Shown one piece after another: positions 26,187 through 53,220 of a stretch of 64,000 bases of DNA. The notes under the pieces are model-generated. The model saw only the letters and a list, made by a program, of their open reading frames with translations. It was not told the DNA's origin and did no database searches. The position numbers and the translations under genes are program-made. Position 1 is the stretch's first letter. The number at the start of each line of letters is the position of its first letter. Source of the DNA: Halosolutus amylolyticus (GTDB lineage: Archaea; Halobacteriota; Halobacteria; Halobacteriales; Natrialbaceae); NCBI RefSeq assembly GCF_023566055.1, contig NZ_JALIQP010000001.1, positions 952,059 through 1,016,058 on the forward strand, read 5' to 3'.

Positions 26187-26648
26187 ATACATCTCGCGAC
26201 TGTGAACCGATCAGCTAGTCGATCATTTCTCACCGACTTCCTGCAGGCTGGTTCGATCGGTTCCCCTCACCGGATCGGCCTCAGACCGGTCCAAACGGTC
26301 GTTGACCGTCTTTTCTGTCCGATATCGCACGTTCGTAACGTAGTGACGGATCGTCCCGACACGGACTGACCGGCCGCGCTATCGCTGGGGTCCGTCCCGA
26401 ATGCGACTTTCCGCTACCCGTTCGTTCCCGACCGTCCGAGATGGTCGATACTGTGATTCAGACTCTCGAAATCGTGTATTTTACTCGATTAGAAACGTAA
26501 GTATAAGTCTCCGTTCGGAACAGATTACGACGATGTCGATTTCGTCTCTGACTTGCCTCTTGAGACGCGCTTCAAGCGATCGTTATTCGAGGCCGATCGG
26601 TATTGTCGGATAGAATTAAGTGGGATGAGACCATTTATCGTGACAGAA

Positions 26649-27413: not shown

Positions 27414-27486
27414 CGCCGGTCGGCGCGGCCCACTCTCGATCCGCACGCATCTTTATTATCGAGTGGCAGGAACTCCTACGGGAATC

Positions 27487-29163: not shown

Positions 29164-29248
29164 CCGGCCGACAGTCGCTCGCGTGCCAGGAGACGTGAGG
29201 TCGCCGCGCGTCGGAGCCGACTCGATCGCCGTGTGCCCCGCACCCAAA

Positions 29249-29256
29249 CTTATAAC
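29249..29256 (+). promoter_or_regulatory. TATA box of the acyl-CoA ligase gene
   Basis: CTTATAAC centred ~31 bases before the ATG at 29284, in the 120-base gap after the ThDP enzyme gene. It suggests that the ligase-mutase genes have their own promoter. Confidence 0.5.
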
Positions 29257-29283
29257 CCGTCTCAACTGAATCAACACGTAAGG

Positions 29284-30681
29284 ATGAGTTGGCCAACCAT
29301 ACCCACAGCAGACGCTCGTCCGGATCTGGAGTCGCCGTACTGGGACGAGCACCAGGAGACGCGACCGCCGGAGGAACGCCGCGAGGCAATCCTCGAGAAG
29401 CTAACCGAACAGGTCCGGTACGCGTACGACAACAGCGAGTTCTATCGCGAGTTCTACGCCGACGTCGACGTCGATCCGCGGAACATCACGTCCTTCGAGG
29501 AGTTCGAACAGCTCCCGATCCTGCGATCGGACGACATCAAGCAGGAACAGAAAGAACACCCGCCGTTCGGGCGACTCCTCTGTATCGACGAGGAGGACAT
29601 CACCCGAATCTACGGCACGTCGGGGACGACCGGTCGCCCGAAAGTCTTCGGGATCGGCGAGGACGACTGGGAACGGATCGGCGAGTGGCACGCGCAAATC
29701 CTCTGGAGCGTCGGCCTCCGCCCGGACGATCGGGTCATCATCACGAGTCCGTTCATCCAGTACCTGGGCTCGTGGGGCGCGCTCGCGGGCGTCGACCGGC
29801 TGGGCTGTACGACGTTCCCGTTCGGTGCGGGGATGGAGGGCCAGACCGAGCAGGCGGTAGAGTGGATCGCCGACCTCCAGCCCGACGCGCTGTACGGGAC
29901 GCCGTCGTACGCGCTGTACCTCGGAGAAACCGCCCAGGAAAGCGGCTACGACCCGGCCGATGATTTCAGCTTCGACGTCATGTTCTTCTCCGGGGAACCG
30001 GGTGCGAGCGTCCCGTCGACGCGTCGGCAGATCGAGACGATGTTCGACTGCGAGGTCATCGATCAGGGGAGCATGGCCGAGATGACCCCGTGGATGTCGA
30101 ACTCCGGGTGCGAGCACCTCAAGAACGGGATGCACATCTGGAACGACATCGTCTACACCGAACTGCTCGACGTAGAGACGGAAACGCCGCTCGATTACGG
30201 GGCGGAGGGCGTGCCGACCTACACCCACCTTGAGCGGACCTCGCAGCCGATGATCCGCTACTGGAGTGGCGACATAACGCGCTGGGAGCGACACGACGTG
30301 ACCGATTGCGACTGCGGCCGCACGTATCCGACCCTCCCCAAAGGTATATACGGCCGCGCGGACGACATGTTGGTTATCCGGGGAAAAAACGTCTTTCCCT
30401 CGCAGATCGAAGATCAACTCCACGCGCTCGACGACTTCGGCGACGAGTTCCGCGTCGTCGTCGAGCGGGAAGGAACCCTCGACACGCTCCGCCTCATCGT
30501 CGAACTCGCGGACGGTGCCCAGACGACCGCGGACGAGTTCCAAGACGTCGTTCGGACGGCGATCAAGTCGGAAATCGGCGTCACGCCGGACGTCAACGTG
30601 ATCCAGCAAGGCGAACTCGAACGGACGCAGTTCAAGGCCGATCGAGTCAAAGACGAGCGCGAACTGGCAGTCGAAATTTGA
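29284..30681 (+). CDS. AMP-forming acyl-CoA ligase, PaaK (phenylacetate-CoA ligase) type
   Basis: 465 residues from the ATG at 29284. It belongs to the adenylate-forming superfamily, with the short PaaK-like plan: AMP motif YGTSGTTGRPK (residues 110-120), a EMTPWM-type acyl/AMP segment, and the C-terminal GRADDMLVIRGKNVFPSQIE hinge. Length (~430-470) fits PaaK rather than acetyl-CoA synthetase. Placed 24 bases before the mutase large subunit, it probably activates the acid that the mutase rearranges, the same logic as the 2-hydroxyisobutyrate-CoA ligase of known hcm clusters. Substrate unproven. Confidence 0.85.
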   Translation: MSWPTIPTADARPDLESPYWDEHQETRPPEERREAILEKLTEQVRYAYDNSEFYREFYADVDVDPRNITSFEEFEQLPILRSDDIKQEQKEHPPFGRLLCIDEEDITRIYGTSGTTGRPKVFGIGEDDWERIGEWHAQILWSVGLRPDDRVIITSPFIQYLGSWGALAGVDRLGCTTFPFGAGMEGQTEQAVEWIADLQPDALYGTPSYALYLGETAQESGYDPADDFSFDVMFFSGEPGASVPSTRRQIETMFDCEVIDQGSMAEMTPWMSNSGCEHLKNGMHIWNDIVYTELLDVETETPLDYGAEGVPTYTHLERTSQPMIRYWSGDITRWERHDVTDCDCGRTYPTLPKGIYGRADDMLVIRGKNVFPSQIEDQLHALDDFGDEFRVVVEREGTLDTLRLIVELADGAQTTADEFQDVVRTAIKSEIGVTPDVNVIQQGELERTQFKADRVKDERELAVEI

Positions 30682-30705: not shown

Positions 30706-32499
30706 ATGAGCTCAGAGACGCACGAAACAGACGACGATCGAATTCCGGACGAACCGAACGGGATGTACGATCCCGAAGAAATCGACGGCGACGGATCGAT
30801 GTTCGACGAGGACCGATTCAACGAGTTCCTCGCCGCCCGGGACGACTGGGAGGCGAACACCCTCGACGAGTGGCTCGAGGGGCATCCCGAGCGCAAGGAG
30901 GTGTTCGAGACGCTGTCGGGGTACGAACGCCAGCGCCTCTACACGCCGGAGGACGTCGAGGACCTCGATTACGAGTCCGACCTCGGCTTCCCGGGCGAAC
31001 CGCCGTTCACGCGCGGGGCCTACCCCACGATGTACCGCGGCCGCCACTGGACCCACCGCCAGATCGCGGGGTTCGAGACGGCCGAAGAGACGAACGAACG
31101 GTACAAGTACCTGCTCGAGCAGGGGCAGACGGGGCTGTCGACCGACTTCGACCATCCGACGCTGACCGGCTACGACTCCGACGATGATCACTCCGAGGGC
31201 GAGGTCGGTCGCATCGGCGTCGCGATCGATACGCTCGACGACTTCGAGGACCTCTTCGAGGACATCCCTCTCGACGAGGTCTCGACGAGCATGACGATCA
31301 ACTCGCCCGCGCCGATCCTGCTCGCGTTCTACGTCGCGCTCGCGGACCAGCGCGGGGTCGATCGAGAGAAACTCCGCGGGACGATCCAGAACTCCATTTT
31401 CAAGGAGTTCATCGCGCAGAAGACGTTCGCGCTCCCGCCGCGACCGAACATCAAACTCGTCGAGGACGTCATCGAGTACTGTACCGAAGAGGTGCCGAAC
31501 TGGTACTGGGCGAACGTCAGCGGTTACCACACCCGCGAAGCCGGGGGGACCGCCGCACAGGAGGCGGCGTTCACCATCGCCGCGGGGATGGGCTACATCG
31601 AATCCGGTATCGAGCGCGGCCTCGATCCCGACGACTTCGCGCCGCGGATGTCGTTCTTCTACGTCTCCCAGACCGACTTCTTCGAGGAGATCGCGAAGTT
31701 CCGCGCGGTCCGGCGCATCTGGGCCCGTATCATGGAAGACCGCTACGGTGCGGAGAGCGACGCCGCGCGGCGGATGCGATACCACGTCCAGACGGCCGGC
31801 GAGAGCCTCACCGCCAAACAGCCGATGGTCAACATTGCCCGGACGACGATCCAGGCCCTCGCCGCGGTGCTCGGCGGCTGTCAGTCGCTGCACACGAACG
31901 GGTACGACGAGGCGCTGTCGATCCCGAGCGAGGACGCCATGCGGATCGCATTGCGAACCCAGCAGGTCATCGCCCACGAGTCGGGCGTCGCGGATACCAT
32001 CGATCCGCTGGGCGGCAGTTACTACGTCGAGAAGGCCACCAGGGACATGGAAGAGCGCGTCCTCGAGTACCTCGCGGAGATCGAAGAACTCGGCGACGGA
32101 AGCATGCGTGAGGGGATGTTGCGCGGCATCGAGACCGGTTACTTCGAACAGGAGATCGTCGACTCCTCCTACGAGTGGGAGAAGCGAAAGGCCGAGGGCG
32201 ATCTGAAGAAAGTCGGCGTCAACTGCTTCACGGAGGGTGGCGACGACACGGAGATCGAACTGTTCCAGGCCGACCCGGAAACCGAGGAGCGCCAGAAAGA
32301 GCGCCTGCAGCGGGTCAAAGAGGGGCGCGACGACGAACTCGTCGAGGAGCGGATCGACGCGCTCCGCGAGGCGGTCGAGAACGGCGAAAACGTCATGCCC
32401 TACCTCGTCGACGCCGCGAAGGCGTACGCAACCGAGGGCGAGATGATGGGCGTGCTACGCGAGAAGTACGGAACCTACGAAGATCCAGGAGTGTTCTAA
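30706..32499 (+). CDS. hcmA: 2-hydroxyisobutyryl-CoA mutase-type B12-dependent mutase, large subunit
   Basis: 597-residue substrate-binding (TIM-barrel) subunit of a B12-dependent acyl-CoA mutase; no fused B12 domain, which is the next gene. Residues that set substrate choice can be read directly by alignment to the conserved frame. At the methylmalonyl-CoA mutase Tyr89 position is Ile120 (RQIAGFET), 27 residues on is Asp147 (GLSTDFD), and the carboxylate-binding Arg207 position is Gln238 (IAQKTF). Ile and Asp at exactly these positions are the hallmark of 2-hydroxyisobutyryl-CoA mutase (Ile90 and Asp117 in the Aquincola enzyme), which interconverts 2-hydroxyisobutyryl-CoA and (S)-3-hydroxybutyryl-CoA. 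The first ~95 residues are an acidic extension. Operon: ligase, hcmA, hcmB, meaB-like. Confidence 0.88.
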   Translation: MSSETHETDDDRIPDEPNGMYDPEEIDGDGSMFDEDRFNEFLAARDDWEANTLDEWLEGHPERKEVFETLSGYERQRLYTPEDVEDLDYESDLGFPGEPPFTRGAYPTMYRGRHWTHRQIAGFETAEETNERYKYLLEQGQTGLSTDFDHPTLTGYDSDDDHSEGEVGRIGVAIDTLDDFEDLFEDIPLDEVSTSMTINSPAPILLAFYVALADQRGVDREKLRGTIQNSIFKEFIAQKTFALPPRPNIKLVEDVIEYCTEEVPNWYWANVSGYHTREAGGTAAQEAAFTIAAGMGYIESGIERGLDPDDFAPRMSFFYVSQTDFFEEIAKFRAVRRIWARIMEDRYGAESDAARRMRYHVQTAGESLTAKQPMVNIARTTIQALAAVLGGCQSLHTNGYDEALSIPSEDAMRIALRTQQVIAHESGVADTIDPLGGSYYVEKATRDMEERVLEYLAEIEELGDGSMREGMLRGIETGYFEQEIVDSSYEWEKRKAEGDLKKVGVNCFTEGGDDTEIELFQADPETEERQKERLQRVKEGRDDELVEERIDALREAVENGENVMPYLVDAAKAYATEGEMMGVLREKYGTYEDPGVF

Positions 32500-32500
32500 C

Positions 32501-32920
32501 ATGGCAGCAACCGATAGCAACGAGACGGAACGAACTGTGCGCGTACTGATCGGCAAACCGGGTCTCGACGGCCACGACAGAGGGGCGAAAGTCGTCGCCC
32601 GCGCGTGTCGCGACGCGGGCTTCGAGGTCATCTACTCCGGGCTCCGCCAGTCGCCCGAGGCGATCGTCCAGACGGCCATCCAGGAGGACGTCGACGTCCT
32701 CGGACTGAGCATCCTGAGCGGCGCCCACGACACGCTCGTCCCGAAGATAATCGACCTGCTGGAGGAGAAGGGCATGACGGACGTCCTGGTCCTCGTCGGC
32801 GGTACCATCCCGGAGGTCGACAGGGACGACCTCAGGGAACAGGGCGTGGACCGGGTCTTCGGGCCGGACACGGACATCAACAACATCGTCGAGTACGTCG
32901 ATCGAGAGGTATCGACGTGA
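32501..32920 (+). CDS. hcmB: Acyl-CoA mutase small subunit, cobalamin-binding
   Basis: 139-residue B12-binding flavodoxin-like subunit. The DxHxxG cobalt-ligand motif is Asp23-Gly-His25-Asp-Arg-Gly28; His25 replaces dimethylbenzimidazole under the cobalt. The SILSGAH and VLVGGTIPEVD segments that cradle the nucleotide tail follow. It begins one base after hcmA, as expected for the two subunits of one enzyme. Confidence 0.9.
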   Translation: MAATDSNETERTVRVLIGKPGLDGHDRGAKVVARACRDAGFEVIYSGLRQSPEAIVQTAIQEDVDVLGLSILSGAHDTLVPKIIDLLEEKGMTDVLVLVGGTIPEVDRDDLREQGVDRVFGPDTDINNIVEYVDREVST

Positions 32921-32945
32921 TCGCCCGGAGGCATCGTCGACAGCC

Positions 32946-33971
32946 ATGACCGTCTCCACGCCGCCCGTCGAGAACCTCGACGACGACCTGCGATCGCTCG
33001 TCGACGGCGTGCTCGAGGGCGATCAACTCTCGCTCTCGCGACTGATTTCGCGCATCGAGAACGACGCGCCGGGCTACCGCGACGCGGTGAAGGTGCTCCA
33101 CGAGCACACGACCGGCACCAGAACGATCGGCATCACGGGTCAACCCGGCGCGGGGAAATCGACGCTCGTGGACAAACTGGTCGACGCGCTGCGCGAACGC
33201 GGTCTCACCGTCGGCGTCATCGCCGTCGACCCGTCGTCGCCCTACTCCGGCGGGAGCGTCCTCGGCGATCGCGTCCGCCAGACCTCGCGCAACGAGGATC
33301 CCGACGTGTTCTTCAGATCGATGAGCGCACGCGGACACGTGGGCGGCCTCGCGGCCGCGACGTTCGACGTCGTCCATGCTATGGACGCCTACGGGAAAGA
33401 CGTCATCCTCGTCGAGACCGTCGGGGCCGGACAGAACGAGGTCGAGATCGTCCGGGCCGCGGACACCGTCTGCGTCGTCGCGCTCCCCGGTGCCGGCGAC
33501 GACGTCCAGGCGAACAAGGCGGGTATCCTCGAAATCGCAGACGTCTTCGCCGTCAACAAGGCCGACTACGACGGCGCGAAGCGAACGGCTCAGGAACTCC
33601 AGCAGATGATCCGGATCGGTCGCGACCTCGAGCGAAGCGACGCGGGCGATCCGGCGGACGATCCGGACACCTGGGTGCCGTCCGTCGAACTGACGGTCGC
33701 GACCACCGGCGACGGGATCGCGGACCTCGTCGAAGCCTTCGACGACCACTACGCGTTCCTCCGAGAGAGCGGCGAACTCGAGGAAACCCGTTCGCGGCGG
33801 TTCGAACAGGAGGTGCGAACGCACCTGCAGAACGAACTCGAGGACCTGGGCGACGCGATGGTTGCGGCCCACCGCGACCTGTTCGCGGACGACGTCGATC
33901 CGTACACCGCCTCCGAGGAACTCGTCGACCCCTTCCGTCGCGCCGTCGAGGGCCACCTCGAAGACGGCTAA
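32946..33971 (+). CDS. meaB: MeaB/ArgK-type G3E GTPase, mutase chaperone
   Basis: 341 residues. Walker A GQPGAGKS (65-72), the VIAVDPSSPYSGGSVLGDR switch region and the NKAD motif identify a MeaB-type P-loop GTPase, which loads and protects the adenosylcobalamin of acyl-CoA mutases. It lies 25 bases after the small subunit, completing a self-contained mutase operon. The dedicated copy suggests this mutase does not rely on the chaperone of any core methylmalonyl-CoA mutase. Confidence 0.92.
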   Translation: MTVSTPPVENLDDDLRSLVDGVLEGDQLSLSRLISRIENDAPGYRDAVKVLHEHTTGTRTIGITGQPGAGKSTLVDKLVDALRERGLTVGVIAVDPSSPYSGGSVLGDRVRQTSRNEDPDVFFRSMSARGHVGGLAAATFDVVHAMDAYGKDVILVETVGAGQNEVEIVRAADTVCVVALPGAGDDVQANKAGILEIADVFAVNKADYDGAKRTAQELQQMIRIGRDLERSDAGDPADDPDTWVPSVELTVATTGDGIADLVEAFDDHYAFLRESGELEETRSRRFEQEVRTHLQNELEDLGDAMVAAHRDLFADDVDPYTASEELVDPFRRAVEGHLEDG

Positions 33972-34029
33972 CCCCGGGAACCCGAACTACTTTTGCGAAA
34001 CGGTCCGTCCTGTCAACCGGTGTGGCCAG

Positions 34030-35298
34030 ATGAGTGATTCAACTCCGGAGCCCTACGATCGGACGGTTGCACACGAACGGGACGTCACCCGGTACCGCCA
34101 CTCGTATCCCGACTTCGACTACGAGACCCGCATCGCCGACCTCGCTCGCCGCCTCGAGTCGACCGACGTCGACGCGGCGGTCCTCTCGAACTACGTCGAT
34201 CTCGCGTACTATGCGGGTACCGGGCAGCCGGCGAATCTCTACGTCCCCGCCGGCGATCCCGATCGCGCCCGCCTGTTCGTTCGACGGGCGGTGGCGTTCG
34301 CGAAGCAGGAGGGCGGCCTCCCCGAGGATCGACTCGTGGGAGGCGGTCTCACCGCACTCGCGGACTACGTGGACGCGGTCGACGCGGTGGGGCTTCCCCT
34401 CGATGCGATTCCGGCCTCGCTCGCGTCGAAACTCGCGGCCGTCCTGGGGGCCGAGCCGATCGACGTTTCCGACGTCGTCTCGACCCAGCGGGCGGTCAAG
34501 GAGGAGGGCGAAGTCGAACTGCTGACGGCGGCGGCCGACCTCTACGAGGTGGCCCACGAGGCGATCCGCAGACGGGCGGCACCCGGCGTGACGGAGAAGG
34601 AGGTCGCGGGTGAGGTGATCGGCTCGCTGGTGAGCGCAGGAATGGACGATCGTGTCTTCTTTCGGCGATGGGACGCTCGACTACCGGCGGCCGGACTGAT
34701 CGCCGCCGGCGACACGCTCCCGCTCGTTTCGGGTCACGCGATGACGGTAACCGGGACGGGTACGAGCCGGACCATGCCCTGGGGACCGTCGAATCGGTCG
34801 CTGGACGCCGGGGATTTCCTGGTGGCGGATCTCGCCCTGAACTGGGCGGGTTACCACGGCGACGTCGCCCGGACCTACGTGATCGGATCCGCGACGTCCG
34901 CACAGCGGGAGTGGTACCGAACGGTCCGCGAGATACACGAGGCTGCCAGGGCGAGTATCGAACCCGGCGTGCCGGCCGAAGAGCCGTACCTCGCTGCGCA
35001 CGAGCGCGCCGAGGATCTCGGCGTGGCCGACTGGCTGTGCGGGTACGCGGAGATGCAGGCCCCGTACGTCGGCCACGCGATCGGCCTGGAGGCGGACGAA
35101 GAACCGACGCTCGTCCGGGGCAACGAGACGGAACTGCGCGAAGGCATGGTCCTGACTATCGAGCCGAAGCTGATACACCCGGACCGCGGAACGGTCGTGA
35201 TCGAAGACGACTACCTCGTGACGGCCGACGGAACCGAGCGTCTCTCGACGACGACGCGAGAACTGACCGAAATTCCGGTCGAACGAACCGCACCGTAA
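34030..35298 (+). CDS. M24-family (Xaa-Pro peptidase/creatinase-like) hydrolase
   Basis: 422 residues from the ATG at 34030. The N-terminal creatinase-like domain (~1-165) is followed by a pita-bread catalytic domain with a full set of metal ligands: two aspartates (VADLALNWAGYHGDVARTYV), the histidine in VGHAIGLEADEEP, and glutamates in LTIEPKL and VVIEDDYLV. The M24 family includes peptidases but also creatinase, ectoine hydrolase and DMSP lyase, so in this catabolic neighbourhood a non-peptidase role is quite possible. 58 bases after the meaB-like gene. Confidence 0.82.
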   Translation: MSDSTPEPYDRTVAHERDVTRYRHSYPDFDYETRIADLARRLESTDVDAAVLSNYVDLAYYAGTGQPANLYVPAGDPDRARLFVRRAVAFAKQEGGLPEDRLVGGGLTALADYVDAVDAVGLPLDAIPASLASKLAAVLGAEPIDVSDVVSTQRAVKEEGEVELLTAAADLYEVAHEAIRRRAAPGVTEKEVAGEVIGSLVSAGMDDRVFFRRWDARLPAAGLIAAGDTLPLVSGHAMTVTGTGTSRTMPWGPSNRSLDAGDFLVADLALNWAGYHGDVARTYVIGSATSAQREWYRTVREIHEAARASIEPGVPAEEPYLAAHERAEDLGVADWLCGYAEMQAPYVGHAIGLEADEEPTLVRGNETELREGMVLTIEPKLIHPDRGTVVIEDDYLVTADGTERLSTTTRELTEIPVERTAP

Positions 35299-35350: not shown

Positions 35351-35767
35351 TCACTTTTCGCCGTCGATCGGATTTCCCTCCTCGTCCACGGTGTACGTGT
35401 CGCCGTTGATGATCGCGGGCGAGTGGACGAACATCGCCCGAAACGTCTCGTCGGCGTCGTCCGGGTTTCGCGGATAGTGCGGCACGCCCGGCGGGATGAA
35501 TACGAGGTGCTCGTCGGCGTGACACGGGACCGGGTCCCCGTCGACGACGATCTCGCCGCGACCGTCGAGCCCGTAGAAGGTTTCGCCGCTGTAACGGTGG
35601 ACGTGCCGTGTCACAGACTCCCCCGGATCGACGTGGATGATTCCCTGGTCGAACATCTGGGTGTCCTCCTGGTCGGTGTTCATCAGGAACTGGATCCCGA
35701 TCCCCAGTCGATCGCGCACCGGGGGGTCGTCGACGTCGTAGAGTTGATACGGTTCTGAGTGGTCCAT
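35351..35767 (-). CDS. Cupin-domain protein
   Basis: 138 residues, single cupin barrel. Motif 1 is seen around RHVHRYSGETFYGLDGRGE (two histidines and a glutamate for metal) and motif 2 around FIPPGVPHYPRNPDD (histidine). Family members range from isomerases and dioxygenases to non-catalytic sensors, so no reaction is assigned. It is opposite in direction to its neighbours, and has its own upstream region with a TATA-like CTTATTA at ~-33 and the 20-bp palindromic motif at about -100. Confidence 0.8.
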   Translation of the reverse strand: MDHSEPYQLYDVDDPPVRDRLGIGIQFLMNTDQEDTQMFDQGIIHVDPGESVTRHVHRYSGETFYGLDGRGEIVVDGDPVPCHADEHLVFIPPGVPHYPRNPDDADETFRAMFVHSPAIINGDTYTVDEEGNPIDGEK

Positions 35768-37856: not shown

Positions 37857-38070
37857 CGCGGCCCCGATCGATCGACCGACCCGTCGGACTTCGTCGGATC
37901 CCGGTTCGTCGGCCGCCGGTCGATCGGTGTCGGACGCGTCTCGCCTACCGGCTGGCGACGTCCCGGCGGTCTGCTATTCGATTCCGATGTACTATTAATT
38001 ATATAAATTAACGGTCGGATGGGTTATACTCTCCAAAAATTTTAATAGCCGATGATTGTATTGCGTTACC

Positions 38071-39342
38071 ATGGCACGAAGAGGTGACCACGTTCGACGT
38101 CGTGACGTGTTGAAAGCGACAGGCGCAGCAGGGGTGGGGGGACTTACCGGATTGGCCGGCTGTTCCGCGAGTCCGGGTGACGGTGACGGCGAGTACGATG
38201 GCAGCATCCACATCGGAGCCGTCGAACCGTTTAGTGGCGTGTACGCTAACCTCGGGGAGGCGGAAGTCCAGGGGGCCGAACTCGCGATCCAGGACCTCGA
38301 GGAGGAGTTCGACGTCGACATCGAGATGTCCGAGGCCGACACCGAGGTCGATCCGGACGTCGGCGTCCGTCGGATCGAGGAACTCACGACGCAGGACGGG
38401 ATCGACGTCGCGTTCGGCGGCGTATCGTCCTCGGTCGCGATCGCGATGGGCCAGTGGGCCTCGCGCAACGACCTCGCGTACATCGCGTCGGGGAGCCACT
38501 CGGACGCGACGACGGGCGAGGACTGCGGCCAGTACATGTGGCGGACGGCGAGTTCGAACACGATGCTCGCACGAACCGCCGGCCAGGCGATGGCGGAGCA
38601 CGCCGATTCGTGGGCGCTCATTTACGCCGATTACACCTGGGGACAGACGGCTCGAGACGCGGTCACCGCCGCGCTCGAAGAGAATGGCGCCGAGGTAGTC
38701 GACACGATTTCGGCTCCGCTGGGGGCGGACGACTACACCTCGGCCCTCAATCAGGCCGAAAGCTCCGGCGCCGAGGCGATGGGCAATATCACCGCGGGGG
38801 CCGACACGACGCGCCTGTGTCAGCAGTACCTCGATAGCGGTCTCGCCGAGGAGATGAAGACCGGCGGCGTGTTGCTCGAGGACGAGGTTCTGTGGTCGCT
38901 CGGTCCCGAAGGCGTCTCGCAGATGGGCGTCTGGGCGACCGTCTGGGGACCGAGCGTGCAGTCCGGGCAGATGGAGGAATTCGTCCAGCGCATCCGCGAC
39001 GAGTACGGAACCACCGCCTATTCGCGCCACTACCTCGGGTACCAGTCGGTCGACCAGCTCGTTCGCGCCGTCGTCCGAGCCGAGTCCGTGGCGGCGGAGG
39101 ACATTCGCCAGGAACTCGACGGGCACGACTACACCGACGTTGGGCTACTTGACGGCACCCAGCAGTGGCGAGAGTGCGACCACCAGAACGTAAAACCGAC
39201 CTACGCGGTTCGGGCCAGAGACGCGGACGACATGGTCGACGAGGACGGCGAGCGCATCTGGTTCGAAACAGTCACGGAACAACAGGGCGAGGACGTCATG
39301 CGATCGTGCGACGAAACCGGCTGCAGTTCCGACTGGACGTAG
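38071..39342 (+). CDS. livK: Branched-chain amino-acid-type ABC transporter, substrate-binding protein
   Basis: 423 residues. Twin-arginine signal (VRRRDVLKATG) and lipobox (LTGLAGCS) show Tat export and lipid anchoring. The mature part is a type I periplasmic-binding fold of the LivK/amide family (IGAVEPFSGVYANLGEAEVQGAELAI). It opens a five-gene importer cluster. Family members bind amino acids, amides, urea or short carboxylates; with a hydroxyacid-CoA module on both sides, a carboxylic-acid ligand is a fair guess. Confidence 0.85.
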   Translation: MARRGDHVRRRDVLKATGAAGVGGLTGLAGCSASPGDGDGEYDGSIHIGAVEPFSGVYANLGEAEVQGAELAIQDLEEEFDVDIEMSEADTEVDPDVGVRRIEELTTQDGIDVAFGGVSSSVAIAMGQWASRNDLAYIASGSHSDATTGEDCGQYMWRTASSNTMLARTAGQAMAEHADSWALIYADYTWGQTARDAVTAALEENGAEVVDTISAPLGADDYTSALNQAESSGAEAMGNITAGADTTRLCQQYLDSGLAEEMKTGGVLLEDEVLWSLGPEGVSQMGVWATVWGPSVQSGQMEEFVQRIRDEYGTTAYSRHYLGYQSVDQLVRAVVRAESVAAEDIRQELDGHDYTDVGLLDGTQQWRECDHQNVKPTYAVRARDADDMVDEDGERIWFETVTEQQGEDVMRSCDETGCSSDWT

Positions 39343-39423
39343 ACGCCGATCGGGTATCGGTCTCTCGTTCGGGTGACCGTAACAACTAACCCTCTCGGTT
39401 CTGCATTCATGTGAAAAGGACTC

Positions 39424-40467
39424 ATGGCAAGTACTACACTAGCAGGGAAACGGTGGACGGAACGGACCGTTGCCACGATCACTGGCATGAACACGGTCTG
39501 GAAGGTGATGTATCTGCTCCTCGGGCTGTGGATCCTCCTCACGGCCGCGGTCAGCCCGGGGCTGTTCGCAACGCAGTTCGTCAGCGGGCTCGTTTACGGG
39601 ATGATCCTGGTGATGATCGCCCTCGGACTGTCGCTGATACTCGGATTGATGGGGGTGATCAACTTCGCACACGGGGCGTTCTTCATGTTCGGCGGCTACG
39701 TCGCGTTCGCCGTCGTCGCACAGCTCGGACTTCCGTTCTCGGTTGCGCTGATCGTCGCACCGATCACCGTCGGCCTCCTCGGCGTGGTGATCGAGCGGTT
39801 CCTCCTCAGGCGGCTGTACGGGACGGAACCGATCAACGGGCTGTTGCTCACGTTCGGGATCGCCCTGATGCTCGAGGAGGCGGTCCGGTACACGTGGGGA
39901 AGCGCCCCGCTCGGGTACTCCGCGGACGTCTTCGAGAACCCGGTTCCGCTACTCGTGACCAACGTTGCGGGGATCCGGATATTCACGACGATCGTCGGCA
40001 TCCTGTCCGTGATCACGATCTACCTGTTGATCGTCCGGACGGATTTCGGCCTCTCGATCCGCGCTGGCGTCCAGGACCCCGAAATGACCGAACTCGTCGG
40101 CGAGAACCTGCCGGTGAAGTTCACGCTCCTGTTTTTCATCGGCTCAGCGCTCGCCGGCCTGGCCGGTGTCCTCCGCGGGGCGGAGACGGGAATCGATCCC
40201 GGGATGGGATCACTGTTCATCATCCTGGTGTTCGTCGTGATCGTCGTCGGTGGGATGGGGAGTTTCTTCGGGAGCGTCGTCGGCGGCCTCCTGATCGGGA
40301 CGGCGATGTTCGTGGCACCGACGATGCTGAACGCGCTCGCGACCACGACCGGGCTCCCGTGGCTCTACCTGCCCGGTGCCCGGCGGGTCGTTCCGTTCGT
40401 CGTGATGATCGTCGTGTTGCTCGCCAGACCGCGTGGCCTCTTCGGCGAGGAGGGGTTCCTCGAATGA
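39424..40467 (+). CDS. livH: Branched-chain-type ABC transporter permease
   Basis: 347-residue LivH-type permease with about eight membrane spans. GVINFAHGAFFMFGGYVAF and GAETGIDPGMGSLFIILVFV are the typical pore segments. The ~30-residue polar N-terminus is longer than usual. It follows the binding-protein gene by 81 bases and precedes the second permease by 67. Confidence 0.93.
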   Translation: MASTTLAGKRWTERTVATITGMNTVWKVMYLLLGLWILLTAAVSPGLFATQFVSGLVYGMILVMIALGLSLILGLMGVINFAHGAFFMFGGYVAFAVVAQLGLPFSVALIVAPITVGLLGVVIERFLLRRLYGTEPINGLLLTFGIALMLEEAVRYTWGSAPLGYSADVFENPVPLLVTNVAGIRIFTTIVGILSVITIYLLIVRTDFGLSIRAGVQDPEMTELVGENLPVKFTLLFFIGSALAGLAGVLRGAETGIDPGMGSLFIILVFVVIVVGGMGSFFGSVVGGLLIGTAMFVAPTMLNALATTTGLPWLYLPGARRVVPFVVMIVVLLARPRGLFGEEGFLE

Positions 40468-40534
40468 GTCCCGCTCGCCCGTCGCGCACTGGTCGGATCC
40501 CACACGCAAACCACAGCTCGATTCGCACGTACCA

Positions 40535-41614
40535 ATGAGCAAGAAGACATCAACGAGGGCGGAACAGTTCAAAAATCTCGTCAACGGGTCGATTACGGTA
40601 CCCGAACGCCAGGTCGACCTGCTCGTCGTCGGCGCGCTGGCGGCGCTCGCGATCGCGATGCCGACGATCGCGGGCGTGCTGATGGGGTACAGTGGGGTCG
40701 CATCGAACGTCCTCATCTGGATGTTGTTCGCCGTCGCGTTCAACCTCCTGCTGGGCTACACCGGCCTCCTCTCGTTCGGGCACGCCATGTTCCTCGGCGG
40801 AGCGATGTACGTCGTCGCGATCGTGATGAACCAGCTGGGCCCGGTGATGATCGTCCTCGCGATCCCGCTGGCGCTCGCGCTCGCCGGCCTCGTCGCCTAC
40901 GGGATCGCCCGGCTCATCGTCGAGAAGGGGGAGATTTACTTCGCACTTCTCACGATCGCGTTCGGCGAAGTCGTCTGGTACATCGCGAACTCGGACCCCG
41001 GCGGCCTCACCGGCGGCGACGACGGCATCGCGAGCGGGCTCCTGCCGCCCCTCGTCGAGTCGTACCGCGGTCAGCTGAGCGTCTACCTCGGGTCGTTCGC
41101 TGTAGACATCTACTGGCCGGTCGCAGCGGTGTTCGTCGTCGCGACGTACCTGTTGTTCCGGATCGTCCGATCGCCGTTCGGACGCACCCTCCTGACGATC
41201 CGCGAGAACGAACAGCTCGCCCGGAGCATCGGCGTGAACACGCGGCGCTACAAGATCCACACCTTCGTCATCAGTGCGGTCTTCAGCGCCCTTGCCGGCG
41301 TGTTGCTGGTGATCGTCAACCAGAACGTCGCGACGAGTTACCTCTTCTGGGAGACCAGCGGCGAGGTGGTGATGATGACGATCGTCGGCGGCATGAGTAG
41401 CTTCGCGGGACCGATCTTCGGCGCGTTCCTCTGGTACCTCGGTGCGGAGTTCCTCAGCGGGTGGCAAGCCATCGGCGGCCTGCGACACTACTGGCAGTTC
41501 GGTTTCGGGCTGTTGTTCGTGGCCATCATCCTGATCGACCCGCGAAACGGCGGCTGGGGGGCGCTCAAGAACAGTGTCCGCTGGGCGGTCAACAAGTACT
41601 TCGGAGGGAACTAG
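40535..41614 (+). CDS. livM: Branched-chain-type ABC transporter permease
   Basis: 359-residue LivM-type permease. The segments NLLLGYTGLLSFGHAMFLGG and SPFGRTLLTIRENEQLARSIG are family hallmarks; the latter is the cytoplasmic loop that contacts the ATPases. The start at ATG 40535 removes a 34-residue non-homologous extension. Partner of the preceding LivH-type permease. Confidence 0.93.
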   Translation: MSKKTSTRAEQFKNLVNGSITVPERQVDLLVVGALAALAIAMPTIAGVLMGYSGVASNVLIWMLFAVAFNLLLGYTGLLSFGHAMFLGGAMYVVAIVMNQLGPVMIVLAIPLALALAGLVAYGIARLIVEKGEIYFALLTIAFGEVVWYIANSDPGGLTGGDDGIASGLLPPLVESYRGQLSVYLGSFAVDIYWPVAAVFVVATYLLFRIVRSPFGRTLLTIRENEQLARSIGVNTRRYKIHTFVISAVFSALAGVLLVIVNQNVATSYLFWETSGEVVMMTIVGGMSSFAGPIFGAFLWYLGAEFLSGWQAIGGLRHYWQFGFGLLFVAIILIDPRNGGWGALKNSVRWAVNKYFGGN

Positions 41615-41615
41615 C

Positions 41616-42410
41616 ATGAGCACACCACCACAATCTGACGCGGAGCCGATCCTCGAGACCCGCGGACTCACCAAGAAGTTCGGCGAGATCATCGCCAACG
41701 ACGACATCTCGATCGACGTACGGAACGACGAACTCCGATCGATCATCGGTCCGAACGGTGCCGGAAAGACGACGTTCTTCAACCAGATCGCCGGCGTCCT
41801 GCCGTCGACCGAGGGTACCGTCCACTTCAAGGGACGGGACGTCACGGACGAACCGATCGAAGAACGAGCCCAGCTCGGTCTCGGCCGCGCGTACCAGAGC
41901 AACGAACTGTTCTTCGAACAGACGGTTTTCGAGAACGTCCGCGTCGCCGCCCAGACAGCAGAGATCGGCGAGTTCAGCTTCGACGTGTTCTCTCGCGCCC
42001 GGAACTTCAAGGCCGACCGGGCCGAGGAACTCCTCGAGCGGCTGTACCTTTCCGACGAGCGGAACACGGAGGCGAGAAACCTCTCGCACGGCGATCAGCG
42101 CCGTCTCGGGATCGCGATCGCGCTGGCGACGGAGCCCGATCTACTGTTGCTCGACGAGCCAACGAGCGGGATGGGGCCGGAGGCCACCGAAGAGACGGCC
42201 TCGCTCATCAAGGAGCTCCGGGACGAACTCGACATCGCGATCGTTCTCATCGAACACGACATGAGCGTGGTGATGGGGATCAGTGACCGGATCACCGTCC
42301 TCTACGACGGTTCACACGTCGCGACGGGCGATCCGGAGACGATCCGGGCGAACGAGGAAGTACAGGAGGCGTACCTTGGCGGTATGAAAGAGGAGGAGCT
42401 AGAACTATGA
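41616..42410 (+). CDS. livG: Branched-chain-type ABC transporter ATP-binding protein
   Basis: 264-residue LivG ATPase starting at ATG 41616, one base after the LivM stop. Walker A is GPNGAGKTT, Walker B LLLLDEPTSGM, and the switch histidine lies in LIEHDMSVVMGISDRI. The signature reads LSHGDQRRLGIAIALA (LivG variants commonly replace LSGGQ). Its stop overlaps the LivF start (ATGA). Confidence 0.94.
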   Translation: MSTPPQSDAEPILETRGLTKKFGEIIANDDISIDVRNDELRSIIGPNGAGKTTFFNQIAGVLPSTEGTVHFKGRDVTDEPIEERAQLGLGRAYQSNELFFEQTVFENVRVAAQTAEIGEFSFDVFSRARNFKADRAEELLERLYLSDERNTEARNLSHGDQRRLGIAIALATEPDLLLLDEPTSGMGPEATEETASLIKELRDELDIAIVLIEHDMSVVMGISDRITVLYDGSHVATGDPETIRANEEVQEAYLGGMKEEELEL

Positions 42411-43114
42411 CTCTCGTCGAAATCGAAGACCTCTGTGCAGGGTACGGCACCGGACAGGTGCTGTTCGACGTATCGATCGACATCGAGGAGGGGGAGATCG
42501 TCTCCCTGCTCGGACGCAACGGTGCGGGCAAGTCGACGACGATGCGGTGCGTGGCCGGTGCGGAGCCGCCCCACGTCCTGGACGGCAGCATCCGGGTCAA
42601 CGGCGAGGACATCACCGACACCAAGACGTACAAGCGCGCCAACAAGGGCATAGGCTACGTCCCGGAGGAGCGTCGCGTCTGGCCCGGCCTGACCATCACC
42701 GAAAACATCCGAATGGCCATCAACAACACGACCGATCCGCTGGATATGGACCGGGTGCTGTCGTACTTCCCGCGACTCCAGGATCTGGAGGACAAGGCGG
42801 CACGAAACCTGAGCGGCGGCGAACAGCAGATGCTCGCCATCGCCCGCGCGCTGGCGAGCAACCCGGACGTCATGTTGATGGACGAACCGAGCGAAGGGCT
42901 TGCACCCTACATCGTCCGTGACGTAGAGGAGGTCATCACGACGCTGAACGAGGAGGAAGGGCTCACGATATTCCTCGTCGAACAGAACGTCGTCATGGCG
43001 ATGGACGTCAGCGATCGCCACTACTTCATCGACCAGGGGCAGATCGTCGACGAGATGACGCCGTCGAAACTCAAAGAGCGCCCGGAGGTCCGCCAGAAGT
43101 ACCTGAGCGTGTAG
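42407..43114 (+). CDS. livF: Branched-chain-type ABC transporter ATP-binding protein
   Basis: 235-residue LivF ATPase. Walker A GRNGAGKST, signature LSGGEQQMLAIARAL, Walker B VMLMDEPSEGLAP, and the VEQNVVMAMDVSDR switch segment. Completes a full LivKHMGF-type importer. The gene is convergent with the propionyl-CoA synthase gene; the 160 bases between them contain a T5 run (43148-43152) suited to termination. Confidence 0.94.
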   Translation: MTLVEIEDLCAGYGTGQVLFDVSIDIEEGEIVSLLGRNGAGKSTTMRCVAGAEPPHVLDGSIRVNGEDITDTKTYKRANKGIGYVPEERRVWPGLTITENIRMAINNTTDPLDMDRVLSYFPRLQDLEDKAARNLSGGEQQMLAIARALASNPDVMLMDEPSEGLAPYIVRDVEEVITTLNEEEGLTIFLVEQNVVMAMDVSDRHYFIDQGQIVDEMTPSKLKERPEVRQKYLSV

Positions 43115-43274: not shown

Positions 43275-46200
43275 TCAGTCGTCCTGTGCGGCCCACGCGA
43301 GGAACAGTTCCTCCTTCGAGGTGAGCCCCTCGTCCGGGAGCGCGTGTTCGGCGACGTAGCTGCTCGCCTCGTGTTCGTTGTCCCACATCGCCTGGTGGGC
43401 CGTCGGGAGGTCGTCCCAGTCGACGACCTCCGGCTCGGTCAGGTCGATCTCGCCGGCGTCGATCGCTTCGTTCAACTGTTCGACCTCGTAGGCGTTGCTC
43501 AGGTGCGTCCCCAGTATCTCGGCGGTCGGCATCAGCACGTCCCGCTGGCGCATCCACACCTGCGGCGCGTACATCGAGTAGCGATTGTCCTCGAGGTCCT
43601 CGCTGTAGACCACTGTACCGGTGTGTGGCTTCGTGAGCATGGTGCTCACGAAGAGCGCGTCGTGGTCGGCGCGCTCGAAGACGACGTCGGGGTAGCCACG
43701 CGGGTTCTTCGGCGTCCGGAGGTGTTCGCCCACCGCCCGTCCGAGCGGCTTGAACACCTCGTCAGTGAACTGCTGGACCGTCCGCCTGAACGTCTCGGGG
43801 TCCTCCTGTGCGTCCGGCAGGTCGGGGAGCGTCTCCGGCCAGCGGAAGTCGTCTTCCCGGCGTTTCAGTCCCTCGATGCTGACGGTTCCTTCCACCGCGT
43901 CGCCGTAACCGAGCGACTCGACGAACTCCTGCTGTTCGTCTGTGTACGTGACGACCGCGATGCGTGCGCCCGCCTCCCGGGCGTCTTCGATGGCGCGCAG
44001 TCCCGTCTCGTCGACGACGTCGTCGTCACCGGTATCGGTGCCGTAGTAGACGAGCACCCCATCACCGGAGCGGACCGCCGCGCGTTCGAACATCTCGCTC
44101 GGCGTTGACGCCCCTGGCTTGCCGAGGAACGTCAGGTAGTAGCCGGTCGACGCGCCGTAGAACGTGAGCTTGCCGCCCTCGCCGAGTAACTGGAACGTTC
44201 GCGGGAACGACAGTTCGCCGGCGTGGCTCACGGCGTAATCGGCGCGCTCGCCGCCGTGCTGTTCCTCGAACGCCTCGACGAACTCCCGGCCGTTCTCCTT
44301 CCACTCGTCCCACGTCTCGGGGTCTTTCGGGATCGGCCCCCAGATATCGTCGTACGGGTCGTCGGTCCGATCGATCGCGTCCGCACCGAGGGTCTCGATG
44401 CGTTCGGCTCGCTCGTCGCTCGAGCACAGGCCCGTGACCGCGACGTCGTTGCGAGTCGCCAGCTTCGTCGTTTCCCAGCCGGTGCCGGTCGAAGCGCCTT
44501 CGACGAACATGGACGTCCGGGGGTCGATGTCGAGCGTCGTGAACAGCGCTCGCCAGACGGTCCCCGTCGCGAGGACGTACGCGCCTGCCTGCTCGATCGT
44601 CGCCTCCTGGGGGATGGGGAGGACCTGCGGCGCCTGTGCGAGCATGAACTGCTGGTGGCTCCCGTTGGGGCCCTCGTATCCCTGAATGGAGAACCCGGCG
44701 TACATGGGGTCGAGCCCCATCGTCGGGGACAGCAGGTCGCTCTGCCCCGAGTAGATCGTCACCAGGTCGCCGACCGCGATTCGGCCCTCGCGTTTGACCG
44801 CCTCGCCGGCGTCCACGACGAGCGCGACGCCCCCGCTCCCCGTGATGTGGTAGTCCTGGTCGTGGGAGTCGAACTGACTTACCGGAACTCCAGTGATCGC
44901 CCAGATGTCGTTGAAGTTCACCTCGCTCGCGAGGACGTAGACCAGCACCTCGTTCGGTCCGGGCGCTTCGACCGGCACGATCTCCTCGACCTCCGCCTCG
45001 TCCGGATCGCCGTGGGCGGCTTCGCCGGTTTCGTCGTCCTTGACGACGGCCTGGGCGTACTGGTAGTCCGGAATCTCGTCGACCCCTGGGAAGAAGGGTT
45101 CACCCGGCGGAAGCAACTCGCCGGCTTCCTGAAGCGTCTCGATTTCGTCCGACGAGGGGCTCTTTCGCTCCCGGGTCGGCAGCGGTTCACTCGCGTTGTC
45201 GAGGAACTTCTCGATTCCCGTTTTTCCGCCGACGGGATCGACGACGGCCTCGGCGAAGTGCGTCGCTTCGCTCTCCAGTCCGGCCTCGATCCCCTCCTCG
45301 AACCCGGTCCGGATCGCCTCGATCGCGCGGTCGAACGCCTTCGATCGACCCTCGCTCACGTGCTCGCACTGGGTCCGATTGCGCTCCACGATCGGATCGT
45401 CGAGCACGTCCGCCGGGAACTCGCCGGGTTCGTTCCAAGCCGATCGCTTCCGCAGGCGCCGATCGCGAGCGTCTGCGAGCACGCTTCCGTCGTCCGCGAT
45501 GTGCTCGCGAGCGAGTTCGGACGCCCGTGCGCGGGCGGTCCGATCCGTCTCGAGTTCGTCGACGAGTCCCATCTCGTGTGCAGTCTCGGCGTCGACGTTC
45601 CGACCGTTGGTGATCATCTTCACCGCGTCCCTGACGCCCTCGGCTCTGCGGCTCTCGCCCAGCAGGCGCGGCAGTCGCTGCGTCCCGCCGTATCCCGGAA
45701 CGAGGTTGAGATTGAGTTCCGGTTGGCCGAACTCGGCGTCCTGATCCGCTACCGAGTAGTGGGCGGCGAGTTGCAGTTCGTTACCGCCCCCGAGGGCCGA
45801 TCCGTTCACCGCGGCGACGACCGGAACCGATAGCTCCTCGATCCGACGGAACGCCTCGTGGGCCTTGTTCGGGAACGAGATGGCCTCGTCGAACTCGTGA
45901 ACTTCATCCAGGAACTGCTCGATGTCCGCTCCGGCCACGAAGTTACGCGGGCCGGCGCCCGTTATCACGACCGCGCCGACGTCCTCGCGGCGATCGAGGT
46001 GCTCGACGACGGTGTTGAGTTCGTCGAGTGCGCGCTCGTTGAGCGCGTTCACGGGCGGGTTGTCGATCGTGACGGTCGCGATCTGTTCGTCGGCGTCGGC
46101 GCCCCGGACGGCGTTGTACTGCACCGTCACGTTCCGGTACTGTTCGAGGATCTCCTGTTCGGCGGCGAGGTCCTGGCGCCGTCGCCACTGCTCGCACTTG

Positions 46201-48710
46201 GGCCGGACGTGGTCGATCGATTCGGGATTCTTCAGCGTGGTCGTGTCGCCGATGTCGTCCCCGTTCAGCATCGCCGTCAGCATCCGGCGCATGTACTTCC
46301 CGGAGCGGGTCTCCGGGAACTCCTCGACCTCGATGAACGTCTCGGGAATCGCCGTCACGCCCTTCTCCTCCCGGACGAGACGGGCCAACCGCTTCTCGGC
46401 CTCGTTCGTCAGTCGCTCGTTAGGCTTGGTCTGGACGAACGCGACGGGCGTCAGTCCCTTCTCGTGGTGGTCCGCACCGACCACGACCGCGTTCGCGACG
46501 GGGGAGTCGGGGTTGACCTGCTTGTCCTGCAGGATCGCTCCCTCGATCTCCTCGGTCCCCATCCGGTGGCCCGACACGTTGATGACCTCGTCGGACCGTC
46601 CGTGGAGGCTGAACGATCGGTCCTCGTACTTCTTCGCGAAGTCCCCCTGGAGGTAGGCGTACTCGCCGTCCTTCCGGACCCAGTAGACGTCCTCGAACCG
46701 CTCTGCGTTCCCGCTCCAGTTCTCTTTCCAGCCGTCCGGATCCCAGTTCTCGAGGTCGCCCCAGACGTACCGCATCAGGTACGGGTAGGGTTCCTCGATG
46801 ATGATCTCGCCTTTCTCTTCGGTCTCCGCCTCGCGCCACGTGATCGATCCGTCCGGGTGTTCCTCTTCTTTGACCCAGACGTTGCCGAAGATCCAGGGCA
46901 GCGGGTAGTTGTGCGCGTCCGGTCTGAGTTCGAAGTCCTCGTTGCCGAAGAAGTGCGTCCAGGCGATGCCGCCGTGTTCGGTGGCCCAGTAGGAGTTGAT
47001 GTACCACTCGCAGATCTCCTCCATGCCGAACTCCTGGACCGCCGGACTCACCGGTTCGGCACAGAACGTCGCGACGCGTAGCGAATCGGTGCTCCACTCG
47101 CGCACGTCGCTCACGCTCTCGTCGTCCTCCATGATCCCCTTGAGGAAGGTCACTCCCGCCTTGAACACCGTCGCGCCGTACCGCTCGATGACGGAACTGA
47201 ACCGGCCGGCGTCGGGGTAGACGGGTGCGCCCTCGAGCAGGATGCTCGTCGTCCGGGTCGACAGCGAGGCACTGATGAGGTAGGACTGGCCCGTAATCCA
47301 GCCGGGATCGGCGATGACGAACATCGTGTCCTCCCCCGGGACGACGTCGAACGAGACCTTCATCGTGTGGGCGATTCCAGCCGTGTAGCCGCCGTGGACG
47401 TGCACGACCCCCTTCGGCTTGCCCGTCGACCCGCTCGTGAAGATGACGAACAGTGGATACTCCGCGTCGACCGGCACGGGACGAGCGGTCGCCCACAGCG
47501 CCCGCACCAGTTCCCGGTCCGGGAGGTCGTACAGGTCCCCCATCGTCTCGACGTCCGCGCCGGCGTCGCGAGCGTTCGCCAGCACGTCCGCCTGCGCGTC
47601 GTCGATCAGGTCCGACGACCAGTCGTCGCGGTCGTGCATCTGGATCTCCTGGCCCGTGTGCTCGACGACGACGACTCGCTCGACCCGTTCGCCGGAGTCG
47701 ACCAGCGCCCGAGCGATCTCGGTCCGGATTTCGGACTTCTCCTCGCCCGAGAGGTCGTCGAACTCCACCAGCGCGTTCCCGACACCGCGCATGGCCTGGC
47801 CCCGATCGACGGTCGCTTCGCCGGCGATCGCCTGGTCGACGCCCTCGAGAATGGCGTTCGCGTGGTGGTCGTCGACGTCGAGGTCGACGAGCGTCCGCCC
47901 GACGATATCCGTCACCGTCTCCACGGGAAGGTACTCGTCGAGCGCGGGATCGGCGTACTGTTCCTTGTACGGAACGACCTCCGCGTTCCGGTAGCCGCCG
48001 TCGCTCGTGATCAACACGTCGGCACCGAGTCGCGCGATGCGATCGGAGAGCGTCTTGTCGCTGAACCCGCCGAACACCGGCGTGTAGACGATCCCGAGAC
48101 GCTTCGCCGCCTCGGTGTAGTAGATCTGCTCCATGATGTTCGGCATGTTCAGCGCGATCCGATCGCCCTTCTCGAGCCCGAGGTTCCGAAGCACCTGGGC
48201 CGCGGAGACGACGTTCACGAGGAGTTCGCGCCGGGAGATGTCCTTCGACACGACCGGTCCGCCGCGCCCGTCGTTCTTCGACTGGTCCCACCTGTCGCCC
48301 TCGAAGTGGAACGCCGTCTCGTCGCCGTGGCCGGCGAGGACGTGACGATCGATCTCGTTGAAACAGGCGTTGGTGAGGCCGCCAGAGAACCACTCGTACT
48401 GGGGCGGCGACGAGTCGTCGAACGCCACGTCCCACGGTTCGTGAGATTCGGCGTACTCCCGTTCGACCGACGAACCGGTCCCGTCCTCGTATCCGGTCCA
48501 GGTTTCCTCGTCGTCGCTCCAGGACAGCCACTCCCCGTCCGACTCGTGGTACCAGTGCAGTTCACGTTTCGCGATCGAACCGTGAAATTCGCCCGGATCC
48601 TCCTCGACTCGCTCCCGCATCGCCTTCCAGTCCTCGCCGGTCCGAATCGGATTCGATCGAATCGATCTGTCGATACTTGACTCTTCTCCGGCGAAATTCG
48701 AACCCGCCAT
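43275..48710 (-). CDS. pcs: Propionyl-CoA synthase, trifunctional fusion
   Basis: 1811 residues from ATG 48710 (in-frame GTG at 48722). Three enzymes in one chain. (1) Residues ~1-870: acetyl-CoA-synthetase-like ligase, TSGSTGKPKG motif at 425-434 and the GRSDEVINVSGHRMGTEEIE hinge, activating 3-hydroxypropionate. (2) ~880-1240: enoyl-CoA hydratase/crotonase fold with both catalytic-type glutamates (GGGNELQ and FGQPELN) and the VAGADIEQF oxyanion segment. (3) ~1290-1811: MDR-type enoyl-CoA reductase related to crotonyl-CoA reductase. Order, length (Chloroflexus Pcs is ~1820 residues) and many long conserved segments, e.g. WFSGGLTNACFNEIDRHV, identify propionyl-CoA synthase: 3-hydroxypropionate to propionyl-CoA with ATP and NADPH. 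Convergent with the Liv-type importer. Confidence 0.95.
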   Translation of the reverse strand: MAGSNFAGEESSIDRSIRSNPIRTGEDWKAMRERVEEDPGEFHGSIAKRELHWYHESDGEWLSWSDDEETWTGYEDGTGSSVEREYAESHEPWDVAFDDSSPPQYEWFSGGLTNACFNEIDRHVLAGHGDETAFHFEGDRWDQSKNDGRGGPVVSKDISRRELLVNVVSAAQVLRNLGLEKGDRIALNMPNIMEQIYYTEAAKRLGIVYTPVFGGFSDKTLSDRIARLGADVLITSDGGYRNAEVVPYKEQYADPALDEYLPVETVTDIVGRTLVDLDVDDHHANAILEGVDQAIAGEATVDRGQAMRGVGNALVEFDDLSGEEKSEIRTEIARALVDSGERVERVVVVEHTGQEIQMHDRDDWSSDLIDDAQADVLANARDAGADVETMGDLYDLPDRELVRALWATARPVPVDAEYPLFVIFTSGSTGKPKGVVHVHGGYTAGIAHTMKVSFDVVPGEDTMFVIADPGWITGQSYLISASLSTRTTSILLEGAPVYPDAGRFSSVIERYGATVFKAGVTFLKGIMEDDESVSDVREWSTDSLRVATFCAEPVSPAVQEFGMEEICEWYINSYWATEHGGIAWTHFFGNEDFELRPDAHNYPLPWIFGNVWVKEEEHPDGSITWREAETEEKGEIIIEEPYPYLMRYVWGDLENWDPDGWKENWSGNAERFEDVYWVRKDGEYAYLQGDFAKKYEDRSFSLHGRSDEVINVSGHRMGTEEIEGAILQDKQVNPDSPVANAVVVGADHHEKGLTPVAFVQTKPNERLTNEAEKRLARLVREEKGVTAIPETFIEVEEFPETRSGKYMRRMLTAMLNGDDIGDTTTLKNPESIDHVRPKCEQWRRRQDLAAEQEILEQYRNVTVQYNAVRGADADEQIATVTIDNPPVNALNERALDELNTVVEHLDRREDVGAVVITGAGPRNFVAGADIEQFLDEVHEFDEAISFPNKAHEAFRRIEELSVPVVAAVNGSALGGGNELQLAAHYSVADQDAEFGQPELNLNLVPGYGGTQRLPRLLGESRRAEGVRDAVKMITNGRNVDAETAHEMGLVDELETDRTARARASELAREHIADDGSVLADARDRRLRKRSAWNEPGEFPADVLDDPIVERNRTQCEHVSEGRSKAFDRAIEAIRTGFEEGIEAGLESEATHFAEAVVDPVGGKTGIEKFLDNASEPLPTRERKSPSSDEIETLQEAGELLPPGEPFFPGVDEIPDYQYAQAVVKDDETGEAAHGDPDEAEVEEIVPVEAPGPNEVLVYVLASEVNFNDIWAITGVPVSQFDSHDQDYHITGSGGVALVVDAGEAVKREGRIAVGDLVTIYSGQSDLLSPTMGLDPMYAGFSIQGYEGPNGSHQQFMLAQAPQVLPIPQEATIEQAGAYVLATGTVWRALFTTLDIDPRTSMFVEGASTGTGWETTKLATRNDVAVTGLCSSDERAERIETLGADAIDRTDDPYDDIWGPIPKDPETWDEWKENGREFVEAFEEQHGGERADYAVSHAGELSFPRTFQLLGEGGKLTFYGASTGYYLTFLGKPGASTPSEMFERAAVRSGDGVLVYYGTDTGDDDVVDETGLRAIEDAREAGARIAVVTYTDEQQEFVESLGYGDAVEGTVSIEGLKRREDDFRWPETLPDLPDAQEDPETFRRTVQQFTDEVFKPLGRAVGEHLRTPKNPRGYPDVVFERADHDALFVSTMLTKPHTGTVVYSEDLEDNRYSMYAPQVWMRQRDVLMPTAEILGTHLSNAYEVEQLNEAIDAGEIDLTEPEVVDWDDLPTAHQAMWDNEHEASSYVAEHALPDEGLTSKEELFLAWAAQDD

Positions 48711-48718
48711 TGTACGAG

Positions 48719-52997: not shown

Positions 52998-53220
52998 CCG
53001 TGCGTCGTCGGCCCGACAGTGCCGGACCGGCGGCGTCGGTATCCAGCAGTGCCACGGCAGCGTCGCCGCTGGTAGTGTCGCGGGGGCTGCGGCTCACGGC
53101 ACTGCCGCCATCCCCTCCGAGGCCGTCGTTCACTCCTCCAGACCCGGATTCCCGGTTCGCCGAACCGTCCGGGACGGACCCCTAATTTAATGACACGCCC
53201 GGGACATGGTAGAACGACCC

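Follow-up and report, generated by a model that had tools for sequence, protein, structure and literature searches.

A complete trifunctional propionyl-CoA synthase predicted in the haloarchaeon Halosolutus amylolyticus

Does Halosolutus amylolyticus, a haloarchaeon, encode a complete trifunctional propionyl-CoA synthase (Pcs), and, if so, from where would the enzyme draw its substrate and to where would it pass its product? The question arises from one long open reading frame in the window, by which we mean the whole 64,000-nucleotide stretch analyzed here (contig NZ_JALIQP010000001.1, positions 952,059 to 1,016,058). The initial annotation had read this frame as a complete Pcs representing an acquired capacity. 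The frame is real and its coordinates are right, and it can now be assigned to the minus strand, on which that annotation was silent (Table 1). It contains no internal stops, and a GTG at 48722 offers an alternative start (ORF 43275-48722). Comparisons with three relatives yield dN/dS values of 0.14, 0.16, and 0.22, with codon differences concentrated at third positions; as such, pcs is under purifying selection and is an intact, selected gene.

Table 1. Coordinates (window numbering) of pcs, its domains, and neighboring genes
Feature	Position	Strand	Basis or remark
IclR-family regulator	26553..27413	+	Pfam; head of module
ThDP-dependent 2-hydroxyacyl-CoA lyase, AcHACL-like	27463..29163	+	NF058623, 532 bits (cut-off 600)
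PaaK-like acyl-CoA ligase	29233..30681	+	
B12 acyl-CoA mutase, large subunit, 2-hydroxyisobutyryl-CoA type	30706..32499	+	RQIAGF, AQKT
Mutase, small B12-binding subunit	32501..32920	+	GPDT at HcmB Asp position
MeaB-type GTPase	32946..33971	+	TIGR00750, 308 bits (cut-off 241)
M24 prolidase/creatinase-fold hydrolase	33862..35298	+	True start probably near 33980
Small cupin protein	35351..35767	-	Conserved in module
LIV/urea-type ABC transporter, whole	38056..43114	+	NCBIfam; convergent with pcs
Transporter binding protein	38056-39342	+	
Transporter permeases	39424-40467, 40433-41614	+	
Transporter ATPases	41574-42410, 42407-43114	+	
pcs, trifunctional propionyl-CoA synthase, 1811 aa	43275..48710	-	ATG start at 48710
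MDR enoyl-CoA (acrylyl-CoA) reductase domain, residues 1186-1811	43278..45155	-	Pfam
Crotonase/enoyl-CoA hydratase domain, residues 866-1180	45171..46115	-	Pfam
3-Hydroxypropionyl-CoA ligase domain, acetyl-CoA-synthetase type, residues 1-860	46131..48710	-	Pfam

The Pfam domains run ACAS_N, AMP-binding, and AMP-binding_C, then ECH_1, then ADH_N and ADH_zinc_N: this is the ligase-hydratase-reductase order of the Pcs fusion, at its length of ~1800 aa. Residues 9-1809 align in one stretch with residues 10-1842 of PDB 6eqo (phmmer, E=0, 2090 bits), which we take to be the Pcs of Erythrobacter sp. NAP1 (the PDB record itself is titled acetyl-coenzyme A synthetase). The runner-up to 6eqo_A scores 270 bits and covers the ligase only, and further matches are single-domain; searched by itself, the reductase domain finds a single solved chain at E<=1e-60, namely 6eqo, with 741 bits. 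Across 30 aligned Pcs proteins, the A10 lysine of the ligase (K805, within ETRSGK) and the glutamate pair of the crotonase (E978 and E998) are invariant, as is the reductase motif SEVNFND save for one V-to-I substitution; the NADPH motif of the reductase reads EGASTGTG. The earlier claims that the fusion is complete in this haloarchaeon and that its motifs are intact are thus upheld by the order of the domains, the collinear match to a solved Pcs, and 1811 uninterrupted residues with conserved catalytic positions, and the assignment of the predicted product as a propionyl-CoA synthase is solid.

We place at about 85% the probability that pcs specifies a functional propionyl-CoA synthase whose product enters the propionyl-CoA carboxylase (PCC) and methylmalonyl-CoA mutase (MCM) route, and possibly PHBV. 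The ligase domain would convert 3-hydroxypropionate, ATP, and CoA to 3-hydroxypropionyl-CoA; the crotonase domain would dehydrate this to acrylyl-CoA; and the reductase domain would reduce acrylyl-CoA with NADPH to propionyl-CoA, with no release of the reactive intermediate. Propionyl-CoA would most likely pass to PCC and then to MCM, yielding succinyl-CoA, and might also supply 3-hydroxyvalerate for PHBV. We infer this reaction and this fate in Halosolutus amylolyticus from sequence comparisons and gene content: the genome contains a PccB orthologue (70% identity, G000:C1:193914), an MCM with the Tyr/Arg signature (G000:C4:113178), and a class III PHA synthase above its model cut-off. Because genes for all three are present, propionyl-CoA from Pcs could be either assimilated or directed to PHBV, and the uses proposed in the initial annotation gain genomic backing. 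PCC and MCM are required by the methylaspartate cycle anyway; methylaspartate ammonia-lyase is found above its model cut-off, and no isocitrate lyase in this genome scores over the cut-off.

Fused Pcs is distributed patchily, occurring in 13/392 haloarchaeal genomes of the order and in neither of the two congeners examined. Among public genomes, Pcs proteins from Natribaculum, Natronococcus, Natronomonas, Haloglomus, Salinirussus, and Halovenus show 68-86% identity to that of the window, compared with 60% for Bacillota (Aneurinibacillus) and 54-57% for Chloroflexales. Megaplasmids (PLSDB) carry pcs in three Natribaculum species, Natronococcus sp. CG52, and Natrinema zhouii. In an unrooted tree, haloarchaeal Pcs form one branch (SH-aLRT 100, stem 0.64), and the Chloroflexota, Bacillota, and proteobacterial enzymes stand apart from it. 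The proposal of an acquired capacity is therefore sustained in part: the patchiness fits it, but, with the fusion in 13/392 genomes and these Pcs forming one clade, the acquisition is not singular to this archaeon, and the tree, being unrooted, separates the haloarchaeal clade from bacteria without giving donor or direction. Within the clade, G305 is a genome of the family to which the window belongs, yet its Pcs clusters with those of other families, which hints at transfer of pcs among haloarchaea.

Several variants accompany these complete enzymes. One of the 13 genomes (G312, L105 14048-16494) has the ligase of pcs in two frames, a frameshift or an assembly error, and another locus (L036, G013:C101:1496-4336) encodes a 956-aa hydratase-reductase fusion that lacks the ligase domain and has no ligase nearby. 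Reductase-only relatives (~612-772 aa, 51-54% identity to the Pcs reductase domain) exist in 7/392 genomes, one of which (G293) also has full Pcs. These stand-alone reductases (L037-L043) are a separate haloarchaeal group; their origin by recent fission of haloarchaeal Pcs was considered and rejected, since they form their own group (SH-aLRT 82, with poor outgroups) outside the Pcs clade.

In the window, pcs is convergent with the LIV-type transporter (Table 1). About 10 kb further on lies an operon of an IclR regulator, lyase, ligase, mutase subunits, MeaB, and an M24 protein. Its core (27463-33971, plus strand), in which enzymes resembling 2-hydroxyisobutyryl-CoA lyase and mutase cluster with ligase and MeaB, is rare (3/392 genomes of the order). 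The best PDB match of the lyase is 7pt1, the Actinomycetospora enzyme (410 bits), and that of the mutase large subunit is 4r3u_A (610 bits, versus 429 for MCM). The 2-hydroxyisobutyryl-CoA mutase signature, which we take to be Ile90 and Asp117 (the former replacing Tyr89 of MCM), is present: the large subunit has the Ile (RQIAGF), and the small subunit has the Asp, its GPDT aligning with QDT of 4r3u_C. The PaaK-like ligase is probably a 2-hydroxyacyl-CoA ligase, judged partly by its position in the cluster. Bacterial lyase/mutase clusters serve in 2-hydroxyisobutyrate degradation (PMC7176365) and ketone formylation (PMC7888143). We also considered a link to DMSP or acrylate: the M24 protein was rejected as the DMSP lyase DddP, its solved relatives at E<=1e-15 being only Xaa-Pro dipeptidases and aminopeptidases, and no NCBIfam model matches the small cupin. 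On the other side, upstream of pcs, are AMP-binding ligases (two, both with C_3-type C-termini), an aldehyde ferredoxin oxidoreductase, and a thiolase (49436-51760, 53206-55242, 56996-58681, and 59732-61072).

With a predicted Pcs in hand, the question becomes what furnishes its substrate. In the relatives, and perhaps ancestrally here, Pcs could be step four of a carboxylating route for acetyl-CoA assimilation, a proposal to which we give even odds. Here, an acetyl/propionyl-CoA carboxylase would form malonyl-CoA, a SucD-type acylating aldehyde dehydrogenase would reduce it to malonate semialdehyde, and an iron-containing alcohol dehydrogenase (Fe-ADH) would yield 3-hydroxypropionate, which Pcs would convert to propionyl-CoA and PCC plus MCM to succinyl-CoA. 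Genes for such a dehydrogenase and Fe-ADH adjoin pcs in nine relatives' loci (L045, L066, L067, L074, L098, L099, L103, L104, and L105), in two different arrangements; five of the nine have a PccB/MmdA-like carboxyltransferase nearby, and the L067 locus includes an MCM with the Tyr/Arg signature. The dehydrogenase is encoded in 6/13 Pcs genomes versus 8/379 others (Fisher p=9e-7, ignoring relatedness) and lies next to pcs in 6/6 genomes having both, yet it is missing from 7/13 Pcs genomes. Its best solved relative is the succinyl-CoA reductase SucD (8cei), which would be consistent with a role as malonyl-CoA reductase, the Fe-ADH then acting as malonate semialdehyde reductase. However, it scores 574-581 against the NCBIfam model for SauS (sulfoacetaldehyde), just below the cut-off of 600, and may therefore act on a different acid. 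Lys and Ser residues matching K70 and S243 of SucD, presumably those that bind the distal carboxylate, appear in the Pcs-linked dehydrogenases; close orthologues from genomes that lack Pcs share them, so they do not discriminate. Nor does the mutase of the Natrialbaceae clusters fit the route: the pcs-adjacent mutase of Natribaculum was rejected as an MCM, its Phe/Gln residues marking it as isobutyryl-CoA-mutase-like by sequence. A route from acetyl-CoA and CO2 through 3-hydroxypropionate has been reported in Haloferax mediterranei (PMC7137286). In Halosolutus amylolyticus itself, PCC and MCM are present, but of the two enzymes sought following the initial annotation, PCC was recovered, as a PccB orthologue; the relatives' SucD-type dehydrogenase, the malonyl-CoA reductase candidate, has no match at E<=1e-80, and their Fe-ADH has a best match of only 35%, so orthologues of this pair are absent. 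For this reason, we consider uptake or catabolism the more probable supply of 3-hydroxypropionate here.

The different module neighboring pcs in the window leaves room for another Pcs substrate. Pcs might serve that 2-hydroxyacid/ketone module, with the mutase or lyase acting on, say, lactyl-CoA to give 3-hydroxypropionate or its CoA ester, which Pcs would then reduce to propionyl-CoA, but we regard this as unlikely. Module and pcs are neighbors in two genera, with their order rearranged: in G305, the whole module and transporter recur with pcs directly upstream and adjoining the IclR regulator. Co-occurrence of the lyase with Pcs (p=0.003) is suggestive only, because it involves just three genomes, and one 2-hydroxyisobutyryl-CoA mutase has measured, weak activity between 3-hydroxypropionyl-CoA and lactyl-CoA (PMC11599936). 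Against this, genome G192 retains the entire module and transporter without Pcs, the module is missing from the majority of Pcs loci, and the numbers are tiny. It is more improbable still, to the point of being a long shot, that the pcs and mutase genes together are nature's version of the synthetic Lcm module described in the literature (3-hydroxypropionyl-CoA to and from lactyl-CoA); were this so, a single haloarchaeal module would connect propionyl-CoA with C3 hydroxyacids and, through the lyase, with acetaldehyde plus formyl-CoA. A possible, though still tentative, reading is that gene transfer placed pcs next to the lyase/mutase module in a catabolic island, where Pcs, a bystander, would act alone on imported 3-hydroxypropionate or acrylate. 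The patchy distribution, the megaplasmid location in relatives, and the absence from two congeners agree with this, as does a LIV-type transporter next door; however, that transporter is conserved together with the lyase/mutase module in both G305 and the Pcs-less G192 and hence is probably not for Pcs.

The relatives' loci hold further genes. Acyl-CoA mutases with isobutyryl-CoA-type residues sit beside pcs in L098, L099, and L045 (Phe/Gln in L045), and the window's genome encodes a homologue with 79% identity (C3:554920), adjoining an acetate-CoA-ligase-like gene. Two Natrialbaceae pcs loci share a conserved gene pair ~1 kb downstream of pcs (L046/L047; 95 aa and 375 aa), the larger member of which has a formyl-transferase-like domain.

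Propionyl-CoA synthase is an already known enzyme; our analyses place a complete version in a clade of haloarchaea, whose pcs neighbors in relatives appear to point to a little-explored route of carbon assimilation. The pcs, SucD-type dehydrogenase, Fe-ADH, and PccB genes of cultured relatives constitute a candidate set for a carboxylating route from acetyl-CoA to propionyl-CoA, by which a candidate for the missing malonyl-CoA reductase of haloarchaea becomes testable, with bearing on PHBV monomer supply. A literature search covering few subscription journals returned no published description of pcs-dehydrogenase-Fe-ADH clusters; K14469, the orthology group of Pcs, already figures as an archaeal marker in one survey, which also refers to 3HP cycles of halophilic lineages (PMC12806544).

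Among known systems, the Pcs of Erythrobacter sp. NAP1 (6eqo) resembles that of the window in domain order and catalytic residues and is collinear with it over 1801 residues (1850 aa versus 1811 aa), whereas the window's protein is haloarchaeal, acidic, and of a separate clade. Full-length homologues with 54-60% identity exist in Chloroflexales and Bacillota (L050, L056, L049, and L051). Chloroflexus has a fused Mcr, for which the relatives' SucD-type dehydrogenase and Fe-ADH are candidate substitutes. Closest are the Pcs of Natribaculum, Natronococcus, Natronomonas, and Haloglomus, which belong to the same clade; Natribaculum and Haloglomus carry the dehydrogenase/Fe-ADH cluster, in contrast to the window's genome. 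Haloferax mediterranei, likened here by pathway description, is also a haloarchaeon, proposed to take acetyl-CoA and CO2 via 3-hydroxypropionate to propionyl-CoA (PMC7137286).
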